DNA from: Tolypothrix sp. PCC 7910
GTDB lineage: Bacteria > Cyanobacteriota > Cyanobacteriia > Cyanobacteriales > Nostocaceae
Reading direction: 5' to 3'
DNA length: 64,000 bases
Assembly (NCBI RefSeq): GCF_011769525.1
Contig: NZ_CP050440.1
Location: forward strand, 5,519,501-5,583,500
A program made the translations under genes and the position numbers. Each line of letters starts with the position of its first letter. Positions within the stretch are counted from its first letter, which is position 1. A model generated the notes under the pieces. That model was given only the letters and a program-made list of their open reading frames with translations, ran no database searches and had not been told where the DNA came from. Shown here piece after piece: positions 48,719 to 61,420 of the stretch.

Positions 48719-49858
48719 TTACGCCACTGAGGGGGAACACAATTTATCTTCTAATTCAATTTCCCGTTCTTTAGCAGTAACAATTGCTTGGGTAATGACA
48801 CGTTGAGCATCAACCCCAACTGCGTGCAATTGTAGCCACTGTTGGGCTTCATTACCTTCGCGCAAAATTTTCTGTAAAGGTGAAAGGAAACAATTAAATC
48901 CTCGTTCTTTAGCGATCGCCCAAAGTTCTTCATACATTTGAGCGATCCAATCTCTAGCAAGAATAGTTTTGCCATCTTGCCAATGTGTCAGCTGAGCATC
49001 CAAACTATTTGCTGCAGCGGCTGCTTCATTGTTAGCAGTGACAGCAATTAGTTCTTCGGGGGTAAAGGTGCTTTGGGTTAACGGATCGATGTGGGTGTTT
49101 TCTATTATCTGCAACAAACGAGCTTCCAGCAACGCGGTAATTGCGAGTAAAGCGATAGGATCTGTGACTAAATCGCAAATTCGCAGTTCTAGGCGATTTA
49201 AATCATAAGGACGGCGATCGCCATTAGGACGCACTGATGTCCACAAATGGCGGACATTTTGCATGGTTCCAGCAGCTAGCTGTTGTTCTACCCATTGAAT
49301 ATGATCGGCATGGCTAGCAAATAGAGGTACATGGCTAGGAGTTTGGGGGAAGAGTCCCCAACGGGTGGAGTGATAGCCAGTAGCTTTACCATCAATAAAG
49401 GGCGATGAGGCACTGAGAGCGAGGAATAAAGGTGCTTCGGTGCGAATGACGCGACAAGCCCGCATTAAGACATCTGGATCGCTAATGCCTACATTAATAT
49501 GTACGCTAGCGGTCACTACTTTTGTGCCGTAGGTGTTCTCAATATAGTCATGATAAGGATTTTTGGGGTCAGAACGGAAGAAGCGATCGCTCCTACCCAA
49601 AGACAGCGTACTACCTGGAATTAAGGTATAGTCTCCAAGCTGCTGGAGGTATTTTCGTAGTTCTTGGCGAGGACGTACTAGCGCACACAATAGCTGCTCA
49701 AAACTTTGTAAAGGTTTCGTGACATATTCAACGTTGCGGCTATCTGGCTCTCGCATAAAACTTGGCATAGCCTCAACTATTTTGTCAGAGAGACCGACGA
49801 TTTCACCTTGAGGCGTGCCCGTATACATTTCAATTTCAAAGCCTTTTAATAACCTCAC
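48719..49858 (-). CDS. gshA: Glutamate-cysteine ligase, cyanobacterial type
   Basis: The 379-residue ATP-dependent enzyme makes gamma-glutamylcysteine, the first step to glutathione. It starts with MRLLKGFEIEMYTG (the family's catalytic Glu/Glu segment), has SVHINVGISDP for metal and substrate and RPNGDRRPYDLNRLELRICD. This is the cyanobacterial GshA group rather than the E. coli one. Confidence 0.92.
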   Translation of the reverse strand: MRLLKGFEIEMYTGTPQGEIVGLSDKIVEAMPSFMREPDSRNVEYVTKPLQSFEQLLCALVRPRQELRKYLQQLGDYTLIPGSTLSLGRSDRFFRSDPKNPYHDYIENTYGTKVVTASVHINVGISDPDVLMRACRVIRTEAPLFLALSASSPFIDGKATGYHSTRWGLFPQTPSHVPLFASHADHIQWVEQQLAAGTMQNVRHLWTSVRPNGDRRPYDLNRLELRICDLVTDPIALLAITALLEARLLQIIENTHIDPLTQSTFTPEELIAVTANNEAAAAANSLDAQLTHWQDGKTILARDWIAQMYEELWAIAKERGFNCFLSPLQKILREGNEAQQWLQLHAVGVDAQRVITQAIVTAKEREIELEDKLCSPSVA

Positions 49859-50316: not shown

Positions 50317-52209
50317 TTACTCCTTGACTTTTTTCCTCGTCTTCTTTTCTGTTGGTACTTTTTTTATTTTTGTTGCTGGTTCCTTTTTAGAAGGTTGCTG
50401 AGGTAAAGTCTGTTGCGAGATAAAATCATCGACTGAATCATTTTCTTGAGCAATCTGAAGACGAAGCAATTCTGACCATACTTCATTATTAAGTAAATTG
50501 ACAGCAGTGTCACGGTTGTGTGTGGCGATCGCATTAATAAATTGACGTAATCCCTGCTGCAATGAATCAATGAAGGGTGCTTCTAGTGTTACCTGACTCA
50601 GCAATGAAAGTGCTAATTTAAAACTTACTAAATCATCAGATAAGTTTTTTGCATTTAACCTTGGTAGGAAAATATTTAGCCACACAGGAAGCAATTCTAG
50701 CCAGTTATTTTTCTCTATTTCGTTCAGTGCTATATTTTCCATTCCCATAGCACTCCATAGATACAGAGAATCTCTAGCTAATTGAGTGTCACGATTTTCT
50801 AAAGCCTTTATCCATAATTGTTGAGCATGGTTATGGAAACGCTGGGTGAGAAACTCATAAGCTTCATTCACTTGCTGGGAAATTGTCACGTGATAAACGG
50901 AATCACCTAATGGTATTTGCTCGCCACTATAATCAAGCCATTGGTAAGAACTACAAAGATAAATTTCTCTATCAACTATTACTTCTTTAATATGCGAATC
51001 TGCTAATTCTGCCAACTGTATATAAGGTAAGCCCTCAGGTATTTTAATGGCTTGGATTGTTTCTGGAATTTCGGTTTGAGGCGATATTCCATAGCCAATT
51101 AAAATGGAAACTCCGCGCTTAGCTGCTTGCTCTAATACCTCTAAAATTTCTTTATTGGCAATTACCTGATTTACTAAAGGTGAATATATAATTATCTGAA
51201 ATTTTGCAGCATTGAGAATTTCTAAAAATGTCTGATTAATATGGCGCTCTCTTAACTGTATTACATTACCTGAACCGCTAGATTTTTGGCTTTTTGTGCT
51301 AGGCTTGATATTACTTTCTAAAGCTTGCTGCCGAATTTTATTGAATCTAGATTCTATTTCTTTATTTTTATGATTAAGAGTCGCTTCTATCTCAAAATTG
51401 CTGGCTGTGTTTAATGATTTGCAAACTTCAGCTAAAGATATTTTCCCTTCAGATAGCAGGGTATCTAGCCATTGTGAACTAGAATCTAAAATTTCCTTTC
51501 CGCGCTGTAGTTGAATACTGATTTTGTCTTGATTAGCATCATAAACCACAAATATTGAGATTTTGCGCCAAATAATTTGCGGATTTTGTAATACCCTAAA
51601 AGCTGTGACAATCTTCCCGGCTTCAGGTACATGAAGCGCTACCTCTGAAGCTTGGAGGCTCGTTTGTATTTGCTCTAAAGTTAAGGAAAATATTTCTTGA
51701 TTTGGCAAATTGACATTTAAAAAGTTTGCCAAATTAGGCAGATTAAGATTTATCTCACTTAATGGTTCACTCTGAAAGATAATATTGTTACTCAACGCAT
51801 CTGTAATTGCATAAACTTGTGCAGCATAAGGGGGTTGTGGTACAGAACCTTTTTCATAAAATAAGCGCCCTTGTTCTGTAACTGTAATTGGCGATTTGGG
51901 TGCAAGAGTTTGTAACCTTTGCAAAGTTTTAATTTTACTTTCCACAAATATGATATCCAACCCCAAAATAGATGCTAATTCTTTAGCTGTTGGTGGCGGA
52001 TCAAATTCTATTCCAGCGCGAATGATAAACTCTTCTAATATATTTAAAGGACGAGCTTCTGTGATGGTTAATTCTACATTTGTTTGCTGCAAAGCATAAC
52101 GCAATTGACGAGCAAATAAAACTGATAAATGAGAATTTTGGGTTGTAATTTCTTCGGCTAAATTCTTAAGACTGTCATCTATGGGTTTATTTGAGGATGT
52201 GAGAAACAT
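50317..52209 (-). CDS. PLD-fold nuclease-like protein, partner of the helicase
   Basis: The frame is open from 52245, but ATG at 52207-52209 is the better start because GGAGG lies 8 bases upstream; the product then has 630 residues. It overlaps the helicase gene end by 23 bases, so translation is coupled. Visible parts: a winged-helix-like segment (about residues 65-125), a PLD domain (about 320-430) with one HKD motif (SHIKEVIVD, His406/Lys408/Asp413), helical repeats and a Lys-rich C-terminal tail. One HKD suggests a dimeric nuclease. Function inferred from the operon: it acts with the helicase on nucleic acid. Confidence 0.8.
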
Positions 52210-55200
52210 CAACAAAACCTCCATGATGACTAACAACATTAGCAACTTCTGAGTACATATTGCCGACTTTACCAGGTTGCTTGGTAAATAAATCGTGACA
52301 GCCTACAATTACTAGCAATTCTTGAGCGCGAGAAAAAGCGACATTTACCCGTTCTGATTTTTTCGCAAATCCTACATCTCCTTTATTATTGTTGCGAACC
52401 ATGCTCACAATTACAACGGGGCGTTCCATACCCTGAAATCTATCAACTGTACCAGTACGAATTTGCAGTGAGGGGAAAAGTTCTGGTTGTAAGCGTTCAT
52501 CAATTTTTCTGAGTTGAGCGCCATAAAATGTAATTACAGCAATTTCTTTTTTGGGTTCACCACAGGCGACTTTTGCAGCCCAAGTATTTTCAAATTGCTG
52601 ACATAAAGCTTCAATCACATCTATTTCCTGAAGGTTAAATAAAGAAGTGCCTTCACGCTGTTCTTGAAATGCATTTTCTCTGGGCATTTTAACCCAAAGT
52701 AAATGGTGTTGAGGTTGAACTATTTCCCCAGCTAAATCATGAGCGCGTTTAATATCTGGCTGCGAAATTCCACATTCCAATTTACCCTCATAAAATTGAT
52801 TGATTGCACCCATAATATTGGGGTGCATTCGATATTGAGTAGTTAACATTTGTTTAATGCTTTGATCCGCATCTTCAAATTGGCTTTTGAAGAGAGACTC
52901 TTCTAAAAATTGCAATTCTTCTCTGCTACTGCCAATTTCTTGGACAACTTCTTCTAAAGTACTAGTATCGAGCATTGGCGGTAATTGTCGATGATCGCCC
53001 ACCATGACTAATTTTCTACCCTTTAAAGCAGGAATCAGCAATTCTGGTGGCGTACATTTACTAACTTCATCAACAATCACCACATCAAAGCACTGAAATT
53101 CTTCGGAAAAATCACGATTTGCGGCTTGTACGCAGGTGATACCGACGACGTTAGCATTATCTAAATATACCTGTCTTAAATCGTGGCGATCGCGTTCTGA
53201 TGGGTTGCGTACTTTTTCAATCCAATCTTGAATAAAATTACCATAGCGATTGAGGTAAACTTCATCTTGAGTGAGTTGCTCTTGTAAAGTATCAAATTGA
53301 GATTTAATGCTGCGTAAAAATTCTATATTATATAAATCAATACTAGGACTTTGAATTTTAAATTTATCAGCTATCCCTTGCCATTCTATCTGCCACCAGT
53401 TGCGCTCTAATAATAAAGTCTCTGATAATTCTGGTTGTGTTTGTTCGGATATTTTATCTAATTTTAGTTTTAAAGTCTCAAGCTGTTGTTGAACAATTGT
53501 TGTTTCTTCTTGTAAGATTGATAGCTGCTCAATTAAAGAAAATTTGATATTTTCTAAGACAGCAAATGGCTCTAGAGATGTAATTAAATTTTCTAGCTGA
53601 CTTAGCTGAGTTATCCAAGCATGGACGTGCTTAGAAAATTCCTGTGGATGCTCCCAAATTTTAGCTTGGGTTGTGAGATATTGGTCAACTAGAGTACGTA
53701 GTTGCTGAGGAATGTTTGGCTGTTGGTTGATTTCTTGCAAAGTATTAATTGCTCTTGCCAGTTTCACATTAGCATCTTGTCTAGCTGTTTCTATCTGATT
53801 TTGAATGTTAAATATTTGCTGAGATGCAGTTTCATGATTGTGCAGTTCATTTAACTGTTGTTGCAGATGTTGTAAATGCTGTTCTATTTCAGTTTTGACT
53901 TTAAAAACGCATTGACGCGCATTGCTAAGGATGCTTTCTATAAGTTCTTGGGTAATTTTAGTGAGAGTTGCTTCACTATTATTGGCTTCCCATAATGCGC
54001 CATAGTTTTGTTGAATTCTATTCAAGAAAAGTTGAGTAGCATCAACTATAGTTTTTCGCTGATTTTGCGTTAAATATTGATAGTTATTAACCTGTTGAGC
54101 AATTTCTTGCCATTGAGTTTGATCGCTCGTTTTCAAAACCAAAGGAATTTTGCTAAAATTCTGCTGGAGAAAATAGCTAAAACTATGCTGTCTACCTTTT
54201 CTATCAGTATATTCTCCCTCGATTTCGTAAGCGATCGCCTTTGCTAATAAATCCCAGTCTGGTAGATTAACGGTGTAATTACTGGGCATCAATGATATTT
54301 TTAAAGAATTAGCCAGCATCACCAATCCTGGCGGCAATTGCATTAGCTCTAAGGTTAAAGGTTGATTAGTCTGCCGAGCATTATTTAGAATTTCCGATAA
54401 ACGCGTAGTAACTGTGGCTTTCCATTCCTTGACAGCAGCGATAACAGACTCAAGTTCCTGCTTGCGATTTTCCCAATTTTGAATAGTTTGCTGTAGGCTG
54501 TGCTGTTTACTAAAAAATTGCTGATTATCTTTTTGTAACTGTTGTAAATTGCTGGAATGCTGTTTAAAAACCTGAACTGCGGCTGCAACTTCTAACATCG
54601 CTACAGTTGCACTTTGAGCATAAATTAATGCAGTTTTAAAATCAGGGATTCCCTTCGCGACAGTGTCACGTAACCAAACAGCCAATCCAAAAGCGCCACA
54701 TTGAGGGCGAATAAATCCAAGTTTATCAGTTAAGTTAATAGCTTTAGCGACATTTACCAAAAAGTCTTTAACTAAAGTATTACCTTCAGTATATGGGCGT
54801 AAATGTGGTAAAAAGTTAGTAATTTCTGGTGCTTCCCAATTAACTATTGATGGCGAATCTAAAAGATTTTCTAAACCAGAAATTAATGTTTCAATTTCAG
54901 TCTTTTTAGCTAATGCATCCTGATAAAGTGCTTCTTGCTGTTGCAAATTAACTGTTAATTTAGATCTTTTTTGAGTTAATTCTTCCTGATTTACTTGAAA
55001 TTCCTCCTCTGCTTGGATATACGTAGTAAATCTGGGATATGATGCCAATAATTGACGATAATTTTCTAAATTCTGGTGGCGATTACTGAGACGAGTTTCG
55101 CAGTCACTAGCAGTATTATCTAACCATGTGCCAATAACTTGGTCTTCTAAAAAAGGCTGTCCTTCTTCGCCTACTTTCTCAGCACGTCCCTTACGTATTG

Positions 55201-56692
55201 CCCGAATTACAGGGTTATGAACTAATCTACTCAGGGCGTTATCTACTGCTAAATTCGCTTGGGAAGCAATCAAAGTCCGCCCACCTCGCAAAGCAACTTG
55301 ATAGCAAATCTCAGCAATTACAGTTGTTTTACCTGTACCAGGTGGCCCCTGAATTAAAACTAAATCTTCGGCGGAAAGTACTGTTTCTACTGCTGCTTTT
55401 TGACCGGGATTAGCAGATGATAATAATAAATCTTCTACTGATAATTCTACAGTTTGATGAACAGGTCGAGCCTGAGCAGCATCAAATAAGAAATTCCCTA
55501 AATAAGGATTTTGTGTGCGTCCATTATTTAAATCATCTAAAGCTTTTTTCTTGCGCTGAATTTGTTTAATGTCACCAACTGCTTCAAAACATAAAAATCC
55601 AGTATCAGGAAGTTGATAACGTTCGCTGGTGATATAATCAGCAAAATCGCGTTCTATCCTAACGCTAATGATGCGATTTTTGATATCAATTTCTTCAATG
55701 GAACCTAATAAGCGACTTTGTTGCCAATTTCTGCCATTGGGTGCAGTTTCAAATAATTTCAAATCTTCGTTTTTTGCTTTCCTTACCCGTTCCCAAAAGT
55801 TTTCGATATCCAACAGATTTTCAGGTGAACCATCCAGGGTAGCTGAGTTGACATCAATTTGAAAACTGATACGTCTTTTAAAGTTATAGTTATGCTTACG
55901 GTAAGGTACACAAAATTGACGCGCTTGAGCAATTTTCTCTTCAATCTGTAGAAAGGCTTTCCATGCTTTTAGTTGTTCTTCTGTAGGTACAAAGTCACCA
56001 CAAATAGGTGTGTTTGCTATATGTGCAAATACTGTTGAGGGAATACCGATATGATGCTCATGGTTAGGCAGAAGCCGCAAGCGCAATGGTACAGCATAAG
56101 CATCATTATTTCCCCGTGCAATTGGGAGTAAATAAGCAGATAAAATTCTTAAACCTTCGTAGCCATTTGGGTGTACTGCAGCTTTAAATCCTAAAGTTTT
56201 GCCTAACTTTTGCAGTCTCAGAGGTAACTTACTATGCTCAGAATCAGTGGCAATAATTAATTCCCAAATTTCTTCTTTGGCTGCTCTTCCTGCACCTTTG
56301 CGACGCAAATAAAACTGACAAGGATTTTGTCCAACGCATTCCCACATTAATTCATGGGCGTATTCTCGACGTTCGCTAAAATCGGGATATTCTGCGACTG
56401 CATCCGCGCCTGCTAAATGCCGGATTAAACTATCAATCGTTGAATTTACGAACATATAGCCCCAATCTTCTGAGGCCATTTTCATTTTTAAGGAACTAGT
56501 TTTGCGAGTAGTAGCAACTTTAGTAACTGCTGGTTTAGCAGCTTTGCGAACACGTTCTGCTTCAAATTCTGAAATAGTGCTACTAGGGCTTTTAGCGACA
56601 ATATTGAGTTGTTGGCATATGACTAATAGCTTTTTGCTATCTACATTTATTTCCTTTGAAAGTTCGTAAATTCTAACTTTTGTTTTGTTCAT
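52187..56692 (-). CDS. Large UPF1-like SF1 helicase with IF2_N domain
   Basis: The 1501-residue protein has an N-terminal IF2_N-like domain (residues 4-52, [27 protein letters not shown]), otherwise known from translation initiation factor IF-2, then an unassigned region, Walker A GPPGTGKT (449-456, Lys455), Walker B VIVDEVSK (Asp1208-Glu1209), QLPP box, [18 protein letters not shown] and [12 protein letters not shown]. The ATPase halves are split by a roughly 750-residue insert rich in Gln/Leu coiled coils. This is the COG1112/AAA_11-AAA_12 helicase class. It heads a two-gene operon with a PLD-fold protein, an arrangement seen in defence systems such as Mokosh. Confidence 0.9.
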
Positions 56693-56956: not shown

Positions 56957-57889
56957 TTATAGTTTATATTGTCTGTACACTTCACTAGCAGCACGATGTA
57001 CTAAAGAATGTCGCCAAACCAGCGATGACAAATCGTCGGCGTAACCGCCACCAATAACACAGGCGACGGGATAACCAGCGCTAACACAAGTACTCAAAAC
57101 CTGCATTTCGCGCCGGAATATCCCAGTATCGGTTAAAGCTAATTTTCCCAGGCGATCGCCGATATGTGGATCGACACCTGCGTCATAAAAAACGATATCT
57201 GGCTTTACCTCTGACAATAAATCAGGTAGATACTTTGCTAAAGTTTGCAAGTAGGCATCATCTTCCATCCCTTCTAGTAAAGGTACATCTAAATCGCTAG
57301 TTTGCTTAGTACCGGGAAAATTCACTTCACAATGCATCGAAAATGTGAACACGCTGTCATCATCTTGGAAGATAAAAGCCGTACCATCACCTTGATGCAC
57401 ATCTAAATCCACTATTAAGATTTTTTGAGCCAGTCCGAGTTTTTGTAAAACGCGAGATGCGATCGCTAAATCATTGAAAATACAAAAACCAGATCCATAA
57501 CTGGGAAAAGCATGATGAGTTCCACCAGCCGTATTGCAAGCTAAACCCTGACTCAGTGCTAGTTGGGCAGTCAGTATTGTACCACCGACCGCTACACAGG
57601 TACGATTAGCCAATGCTGGACTCCACGGTAAACCAATACGCCGTTGTGCTTTAGAATCTAAAGTTCCTTCACAGTAAGCTCGAACATAATCACCAGTATG
57701 AACCAACTCAATCAATTCTGCTGAAGGATGCACAGGCGTATGAAATTGCTCAATTTGCGCTACCCCATCAGCTATTAACAATTCGTATAATTGCTGAAAC
57801 TTCGCCATCGGAAACCGATGTCCCTCCGGTAGCGGCGCAACGTAATCTGGATGATAAATAATCGGTAAATCCACAGTGGGGTTTGTCAT
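56957..57889 (-). CDS. Histone deacetylase-family protein (acetoin utilisation/deacetylase)
   Basis: The frame runs from 58048, but its first 50 codons only translate a heptamer repeat (GTGDWGL...). ATG at 57887-57889 (MTNPTVDLP) gives a normal 310-residue HDAC-like enzyme. Metal and catalytic parts: [29 protein letters not shown] and YDAGVDPH. It deacetylates an unknown small molecule or protein; bacterial substrates include acetylpolyamines. Confidence 0.88.
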
Positions 57890-57944
57890 TTGGCATTTGT
57901 CATTTGTCATTTGGTGTTTGGTGTTTGTCATTAAATTATTTCCT

Positions 57945-58048
57945 CCCCAATCCCCAGTCCCTAATCCCCAGTCCCCAGTTCCCAATCCCCAGTCCCCAGT
58001 CCCCAGTCCCCAATCCCCAGTCCCCAGTTCCCAATCCCCAATCCCCAA
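57945..58048. repeat. CCCCAGT heptamer array
   Basis: About 14 head-to-tail 7-mers, mostly CCCCAGT and CCCCAAT with TTCCCAAT variants, lie upstream of the HDAC-like gene and create a false N-terminal extension of its frame. Confidence 0.92.
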
Positions 58049-60742: not shown

Positions 60743-61300
60743 TTACTCAAGCGTTAACCAACTAAAAACTTGCTCAACGCTTAAAGATAAATCTAGATTA
60801 CTAAGAACAGGTAGCAAATCTTTACCTGTTAGCATTTCAACTCTTTGATTTGGAAATATAGTTAAAATACTCGCTTCTTCTGGAAAAATTAGCCACCCTA
60901 ATTCTGTGCCATTTTGAGAACAGTGGAGTAAGTTACGCAGAACTTTAGCTTGACTTTGCTCTGGAGAGAGGATTTCTATTGCCCAATCAGGATGAGTTTC
61001 AAAACGGTTAGCAATTCTGCCAGATGGTTCACGAGGAATGCGTTCCCAACGAAATACCACAATATCAGGAACTATAGCTGCACCGCCAAAAATACAACGC
61101 AGTTCGGGAAAAGCTAGGGCAATTTTTTGAGGTTTAGCTATTTGGTTAATTCTTTCACAGAGTTCTACTTGTAGTAGGCTATGTTCTCCTTGAGGCATAA
61201 CTTTTTGACTCACTTTTCCATCGATGTACTCTGAGGCAGGTTTGGTTTCTGGTAATTGGAGAAATTCTTCTAAGGTGATGGATTTGACTAGTGTACTCAT
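60743..61300 (-). CDS. Uma2 family endonuclease-like protein
   Basis: From ATG 61300 (MSTLVKSITLEEFLQLPE) the product has 185 residues; the frame extends to 61327. It is a DUF820/Uma2 protein with a PD-(D/E)xK nuclease fold: EYIDGKVSQK, VPDIVVFRWERI and WAIEILSPEQS. The family is greatly expanded in filamentous cyanobacteria; its role is not established. Confidence 0.92.
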   Translation of the reverse strand: MSTLVKSITLEEFLQLPETKPASEYIDGKVSQKVMPQGEHSLLQVELCERINQIAKPQKIALAFPELRCIFGGAAIVPDIVVFRWERIPREPSGRIANRFETHPDWAIEILSPEQSQAKVLRNLLHCSQNGTELGWLIFPEEASILTIFPNQRVEMLTGKDLLPVLSNLDLSLSVEQVFSWLTLE

Positions 61301-61420
61301 CGTTTTTCTTGCCAAATTCTCTAACATTTATTTTTCGTAATTCGTAATTACAAAATACTGGCAGAATCTAAGTTGAGAGGTTTGTATGTTTTGCAGAATT
61401 TTCATAAATTAAATTACTCA

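Follow-up and report, generated by a model that had tools for sequence, protein, structure and literature searches.

A 64,000-nucleotide stretch of the Tolypothrix sp. PCC 7910 chromosome (hereafter the window) encodes, on its minus strand, a very large UPF1-like helicase (gene A) that begins with a translation-factor domain, followed by a putative phospholipase D (PLD)-fold protein (gene B). The initial annotation of this DNA proposed either a defence system or an RNA/DNA quality-control module. We asked what kind of machine the A-B pair is, and whether it behaves in its host family like a mobile defence system or like a resident component of the cell.

Organization of the A-B locus

The features of the locus are collected in Table 1. 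Both genes lie where the initial annotation had placed them, and its description of A as a 1501-residue UPF1-like helicase agrees with Pfam matches to AAA_11 (E = 4.5e-39) and AAA_12 (E = 1.9e-48). The nearest solved structures include SMUBP-2, UPF1, DNA2, and SEN1. The Walker A motif is unchanged in 23 of 23 aligned A sequences. The insert between the helicase halves, earlier put at 750 residues, is shorter by our measure (Table 1). A fold search with residues 1-431 returned IF2 and otherwise weak matches only, to UPF1, SEN1, and ZNFX1. The Pfam scan of A contained no kinase domain, and a search of phage records gave four matches, each covering 20-25% of A and confined to the helicase half.

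Table 1. Features of the A-B locus and its flanks (positions in the window)
Feature	Position	Strand	Basis or remark
GCS2 glutamate-cysteine ligase-like gene (PF04107), site marker downstream of B	48719..49858	-	
Gene B from ATG: adaptor, PLD, and C-terminal helical domain	50317..52209	-	
B C-terminal helical domain (BC)	50410..50862	-	retained in some relatives without PLD
B PLD domain	50881..51243	-	HxKx4D intact at 50971-50994
SSYQ in B PLD, where many relatives have GSHN	50941-50952	-	
B adaptor (BN), constant part, winged-helix-like	51376..52209	-	
Gene A, UPF1-like SF1 helicase, 1501 aa	52187..56692	-	ORF, Pfam, solved-structure relatives
Second helicase half, A residues 1165-1475	52268..53200	-	DEVSK, QYRMH, SRAQEL motifs
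L/Q/E-rich insert separating the helicase halves, A residues 536-1164 (~629 residues)	53201..55087	-	
Walker A GPPGTGKT, A residue 449	55325..55348	-	sequence motif
Conserved pre-helicase region, A residues 75-420	55433..56470	-	outside any Pfam family
IF2_N domain, A residues 5-50, copy of host infB 5' end	56543..56680	-	Pfam, DNA comparison
Histone-deacetylase-fold gene (PF00850), site marker upstream of A	56957..58048	-	

The open frame of B begins at a TTG (52245), and its ATG at 52209, which has a GGAGG 8 nt upstream, gives the 23-nt overlap with A that had been reported. The Pfam family PLDc_2 matched B below its cut-off (19.5 versus 27 bits). A structure model of moderate quality (pLDDT 71, pTM 0.43) was matched by Foldseek to PLD enzymes, NucT (E = 1.4e-4) and Zucchini (E = 5.2e-4) being two of them, which supports the earlier assignment of a single-HKD PLD fold to B. 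The modelled secondary structure of the adaptor is compatible with a winged helix.

The HKD motif of PLD proteins consists of HxKx4D together with a GSxN part. In a pattern search of the 38 B frames that show a PLD signal (one of them a fragment), 34 have HxKx4D and 16 of those also have GSxN. By its sequence the motif in the window is partly degenerate, with HxKx4D kept and GSxN changed, and because of this change the PLD domain of the window may be weakened. Three of the compared pairs contain the window copy; in these the domain has a dN/dS of 0.21-0.23, so it may be in full use there.

The IF2_N domain of A is related to the host infB gene

The IF2_N domain that the initial annotation had seen in A proved significant, at 35.1 bits against a curated Pfam cut-off of 25.3 (40.4 bits in a scan of the genome). 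IF2_N occurs at three places in this genome: twice in one 1051-residue frame, which from its sequence we took to be infB, and once in A. The N-terminus of A shares 35 of its first 50 residues with host IF-2, and comparison of two 440-nt stretches of DNA showed 77.6% identity between A and infB over 143 nt (E = 6e-22). The bit scores and this DNA identity rule out a chance match. The DNA similarity starts only 3 nt before the ATG; no sign was found that the infB leader had been captured along with the tag. These comparisons support the view that A acquired IF2_N by copying of the 5' end of infB.

The tag is patchily distributed. In four of eight chosen relatives IF2_N occurs a third time, in A; the other four are limited to the two infB copies. 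IF2_N is present in 26 of 79 full-length cyanobacterial A loci and absent from 53; one locus (L062) has, by eye, an apparent IF2_N stub, as if the domain had been lost. Four other loci (L063, L064, L077, L079) have in its place an N-terminal extension of about 230 residues that appears beta-helix-like by eye. Where IF2_N is present, its dN/dS was 0-0.29 in 10 of 10 pairs, a rough estimate since the domain has 50 codons. Given this patchy presence and these dN/dS values, the domain is, judged from sequence, optional yet constrained where it occurs. A single capture is favoured. The tag of one genome (G030) is closer to its own infB (43 of 51 residues) than to other tags, and a second capture or gene conversion may therefore have taken place there.

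The A-B pair occupies a fixed site in much of its family

To describe the distribution of the pair we used genomes drawn evenly from larger groups (194 cyanobacteria and 119 genomes of the window's family). Gene B was found in 24 of the 194 cyanobacterial genomes, and this A in the same 24. Four further genomes of that survey matched the A search through other helicases, which have a kinase motif in three (G081, G087, G179) and lack it in the fourth (G063). The initial annotation had allowed for a housekeeping pair universally conserved at one site: the distribution rules out universality, whereas a fixed, mainly vertically inherited site, occupied in much of the family, is what we observed.

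Within the family, A is present in 68 of 119 genomes and absent from 51. The co-occurrence of the two genes, which had been put forward as a check, is complete: B is present in all 68 A-positive genomes, also where A and B are unlinked. Further B matches came from G062, where A is reduced to its end, and from G081, through a Mokosh-type B. B is the next gene after A in 62 of 79 loci. The two genes are distant on one contig in G119, G208, and G244 and elsewhere lie on different contigs, both being retained. Decayed copies also occur, with A broken in G242, G204, and G218.

At 51 of the 79 A loci the fetched region contains the deacetylase-like or the GCS2 gene, and at 41 it contains both, some regions stopping at contig ends. 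We checked for empty sites in the GCS2 region of 20 of the 51 A-negative family genomes. In 8 of these the two neighbours adjoin without A-B, in 3 the deacetylase gene is broken or turned, and in 9 no such gene is seen at that place. Distances between A sequences correlated with those between the two neighbour genes (r = 0.70, n = 40, 0 of 2000 permutations), and the fixed-site copies all fall in one clade (support 100) that includes a moved subgroup. The correlation and the single clade support one arrival of A-B at this site followed by mainly vertical descent with losses; the trees are quick or FastTree trees in which several rows have long branches and same-genus rows are not independent. 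Thus, as far as sequence can tell, A-B is not mobile in one clade of the window's family, where the pair sits between the deacetylase-like and GCS2 genes. Mobile defence islands do not typically have such a fixed, mainly vertically inherited site.

The PLD domain is repeatedly absent while helicase and adaptor are conserved

The adaptor-PLD protein is present in 36 and missing from 33 of the 69 B-bearing family genomes (G081 dropped). Among the 33, G229 has a PLD frame without adaptor at another place, next to a partial A, and 8 genomes have the adaptor joined directly to the C-terminal helical domain. PLD-less B is the next gene at 32 loci. No remnant of the PLD or C-terminal domain was detected at 28 of them at E = 1e-3; the C-terminal domain is kept at 3 and a 19-residue piece at 1. 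The starred branches of the A tree force at least nine changes of PLD state among 76 labelled rows, a count that by itself does not separate loss from gain (traits were counted on 77 of 79 rows, with L062 and L080 left out, and one more row had no PLD label). It could be argued that short B genes are assembly errors; however, this is unlikely as they occur in whole clades and their adaptors are constrained.

To estimate selection we calculated dN/dS from 23 chosen pairs, some of which share rows. Values were 0.01-0.13 for the helicase and 0.13-0.34 for the adaptor, the latter being 0.13-0.31 in 11 of 11 PLD-less pairs and 0.14-0.34 in 12 of 12 pairs with PLD. The PLD domain itself gave 0.17-1.53 in 12 pairs, the highest value depending on a dS of 0.03. 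In all 33 PLD-less genomes A is free of stops. These data support continued purifying selection on helicase and adaptor despite PLD loss, and recurrent loss or partial degradation of the predicted PLD effector in this branch. By the same sequence evidence PLD is dispensable to the helicase-adaptor module.

The same adaptor carries DarT in relatives outside the fixed site

On pC052_C, a predicted conjugative plasmid of Nostoc sp. C052, A and B lie within a BREX operon (L272). B here has DarT behind the adaptor (residues 1-270, E = 1e-54), and an ADP-ribosylglycohydrolase gene comes next. We scanned four adaptor proteins with odd long frames (L272, L275, L277, L278), and DarT scored above the Pfam cut-off in all four. 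L275, from G257, lies between PglX and an ADP-ribosylglycohydrolase gene, with PglZ after it. In two stretches (L272:9016-15764 and L275:7346-14477), helicase, adaptor-DarT, and ADP-ribosylglycohydrolase thus lie together inside BREX operons, flanked by PglX and PglZ. The gene next to L278 is not an ADP-ribosylglycohydrolase, and A is only a fragment at L277. The tree includes three DarT-associated A copies, which group in a single clade separate from the fixed-site one. Aulosira laxa and Cyanobacterium sp. HL-69 have plasmid copies with PLD; that of HL-69 adjoins restriction and toxin-antitoxin genes. These arrangements support a B composed of a constant adaptor and a putative exchangeable effector, namely a PLD nuclease, a DarT ADP-ribosyltransferase, or none.

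Outside the window, the neighbour genes given to PADLOC were picked by hand. Near copies outside the fixed site, 5 of 10 such genes matched PADLOC families (PglZ, PglX, a GajB-like helicase, a PDC-M16A match, and a PD-T4-6-type kinase), while none of the five scanned near L278, L213, L219, L222, and L080 did; near Bacilli and Ruminococcus copies the figure was 1 of 10. The kinase gene (L059:5036-6562, in G189) adjoins A-B divergently and matches PD-T4-6 end to end (E = 3.5e-188). In the window, 9 of 10 scanned neighbours had no PADLOC match, and the tenth, a Uma2-type putative restriction endonuclease gene (60743-61327), matched weakly and only the PADLOC candidate PDC-S03.

Relationship to Bacilli pairs, Mokosh, and CnuH/CnuE

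We scanned for wider kin among the best 80 of 414 relatives and built a helicase-core tree from 89 of 91 candidate rows, with kinases marked by sequence motif. Among those best 80, cyanobacterial A has its nearest clade in a Bacilli/Ruminococcus group; the branch uniting the two is supported at 85 and is not starred. When non-cyanobacterial loci were examined, 17 had an A that matched the A1 profile at E < 1e-150. Sixteen of them are Bacillota loci with a B of 244-305 aa directly after A, and in the remaining one, from Ruminococcus, A is fused to a piece of the adaptor. Helicase and a short piece of the B adaptor form one chain at L101:9356-12835 (Ruminococcus). The unnamed Bacilli pair (16 loci among L081-L108) is homologous to A over profile columns 98-1489 (hhalign 4e-143) and to the cyanobacterial B adaptor (hhalign 2.4e-6, probability 89). 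It differs in that its B is too short for PLD in all 16 loci and in that its A shows no IF2_N counterpart, as seen in the alignment rather than a Pfam scan. Adjoining the A/Bacilli group in the tree is a separate helicase operon (L092, L093, and L094, with L096, L098, and L102 in part), whose partners are of ~730-840, 375, 612, and 190-205 aa.

In Mokosh type I systems a kinase domain is fused to the helicase, in agreement with the MkoA profiles. The likeness to Mokosh claimed in the initial annotation was borne out by PADLOC matches of A to MkoA (1.5e-117) and of B to MkoB (1e-22). Like A-B, type I combines an MkoA-like helicase with a separate single-HKD PLD protein that has a homologous adaptor; adaptor and PLD of B align with the kinase-type Mokosh B (hhalign 8.9e-18). 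A-B differs in having no kinase in A, a separate helicase clade, and a dispensable PLD. The best MkoA stretch in A covers profile positions 721-1096 of 1112, whereas kinase-type proteins match over nearly the full length. Kinase-bearing MkoA proteins lie elsewhere in the tree, apart from A and the Bacilli pairs (a quick tree with modest support), and G030 and G121 hold a kinase-type pair and an A-B pair at separate loci. The type II profile, MkoC, matches both A (5.8e-31) and B (2.6e-9), but MkoC is one chain and A-B is two genes.

Although the initial annotation had considered the tagged helicase to lie outside known classes, UPF1-like helicases followed by a gene for a winged-helix protein with an effector are already described as a class in PMC11090510. 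There, the CoCoNuT helicase CnuH carries an SmpB-like N-terminal domain, and binding of the adaptor by the helicase insert is suggested for CnuH/CnuE from models. CnuH and A are alike in being UPF1-like helicases in which a long insert follows Walker A, and each is succeeded by a gene for a protein with an exchangeable effector, of winged-helix type in CnuE and compatible with that fold in the model of B. Both have a translation-related N-terminal fusion, SmpB-like in CnuH and IF2_N in A. A-B is unlike that class in its fixed vertical site and recurrent effector loss, and some A-B relatives have a DarT effector, whereas "ADP-ribosyl" appears nowhere in the text of PMC11090510. CoCoNuT proper is not indicated, as none of 10 window neighbours scanned is a McrB/McrC homologue by Pfam. 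From these sequence comparisons, the closest described class is that of UPF1-like helicase plus winged-helix-effector operons (CnuH/CnuE relatives; Mokosh). Further related literature comprises PMC12839542, PMC11291487, PMC10952713, and PMC12278908. In the titles and abstract openings of open-licence papers, among the matches listed, the A-B pair, its IF2_N, and the DarT variant are undescribed.

Likely role of the pair

We consider A-B to be one branch of a modular defence-type machine, settled on the chromosome and often deprived of its effector by loss, and give this reading a probability of roughly 0.55. It draws on the MkoA and MkoB matches, the exchange of PLD for DarT, the BREX and plasmid copies, and the co-occurrence of A and B, as well as on the PADLOC neighbours outside the fixed site, the recurrent absence of PLD with helicase and adaptor under constraint, the short B of the Bacilli pairs, the fixed site with its correlated distances, and the helicase class already described. 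Defence genes seldom descend vertically at one fixed site; this, the near-absence of PADLOC matches around the window, their scarcity near the Bacilli and Ruminococcus copies and near L278, L213, L219, L222, and L080, and the dN/dS of the window's PLD count against it. Under such a mechanism, A would use ATP to travel on RNA or single-stranded DNA and would sense an abnormal substrate. Its long insert would hold the B adaptor, which would position an effector that acts once triggered, and IF2_N would gather A on initiating ribosomes or their mRNA. Ancestrally, the machine most likely protected cells from phages or plasmids, and this branch may now perform part of that task without cutting.

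It could be speculated that A is instead a small bacterial UPF1 for host RNA and translation surveillance, brought to initiating ribosomes by IF2_N, which clears or remodels faulty complexes and for which the nuclease is optional. The infB-derived tag with its low dN/dS, the mainly vertical descent at one site, and the dispensable nuclease are consistent with this. However, it is rather unlikely, as most A loci lack the tag and L062 seems to have lost it, 51 of 119 family genomes have no A and the site is cleanly empty in 8 of 20 examined, and relatives are located within BREX operons or on plasmids, where some of them have a toxin-like effector. A further possibility is a domesticated defence helicase, effector-free in many genomes, that the infB-derived tag would bring to initiating ribosomes as a UPF1-like surveillance factor. 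We hold this to be unlikely. A genome-maintenance helicase acting in replication-transcription conflicts, at R-loops, or in repair would suit the nearest solved structures (SMUBP-2, DNA2, SEN1), but it appears quite improbable because no recognised repair gene was among the 10 window neighbours scanned and because DarT exchange in BREX operons suits defence better. Finally, a true Mokosh type I system, in spite of the profile matches and the aligning B proteins, has scarcely any probability left: the missing kinase and the grouping of A with the Bacilli pairs rule out that identity, and the partial MkoA match and the genomes that hold both kinds argue in the same direction.

What is new here is the non-mobile site with vertical descent, the dispensable PLD, and the replacement of PLD by DarT in four relatives. 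One adaptor bears PLD, DarT, or nothing behind the same kind of helicase. With the IF2_N copied from infB, this helicase class has a further N-terminal fusion of translation-related origin alongside the SmpB-like domain reported for CoCoNuT CnuH (PMC11090510). In the window's family, the helicase-adaptor core outlives its effector at a core chromosomal site. The nuclease-free action of such a helicase is thus now directly testable, as is a route by which a defence machine may become a resident component of the cell.
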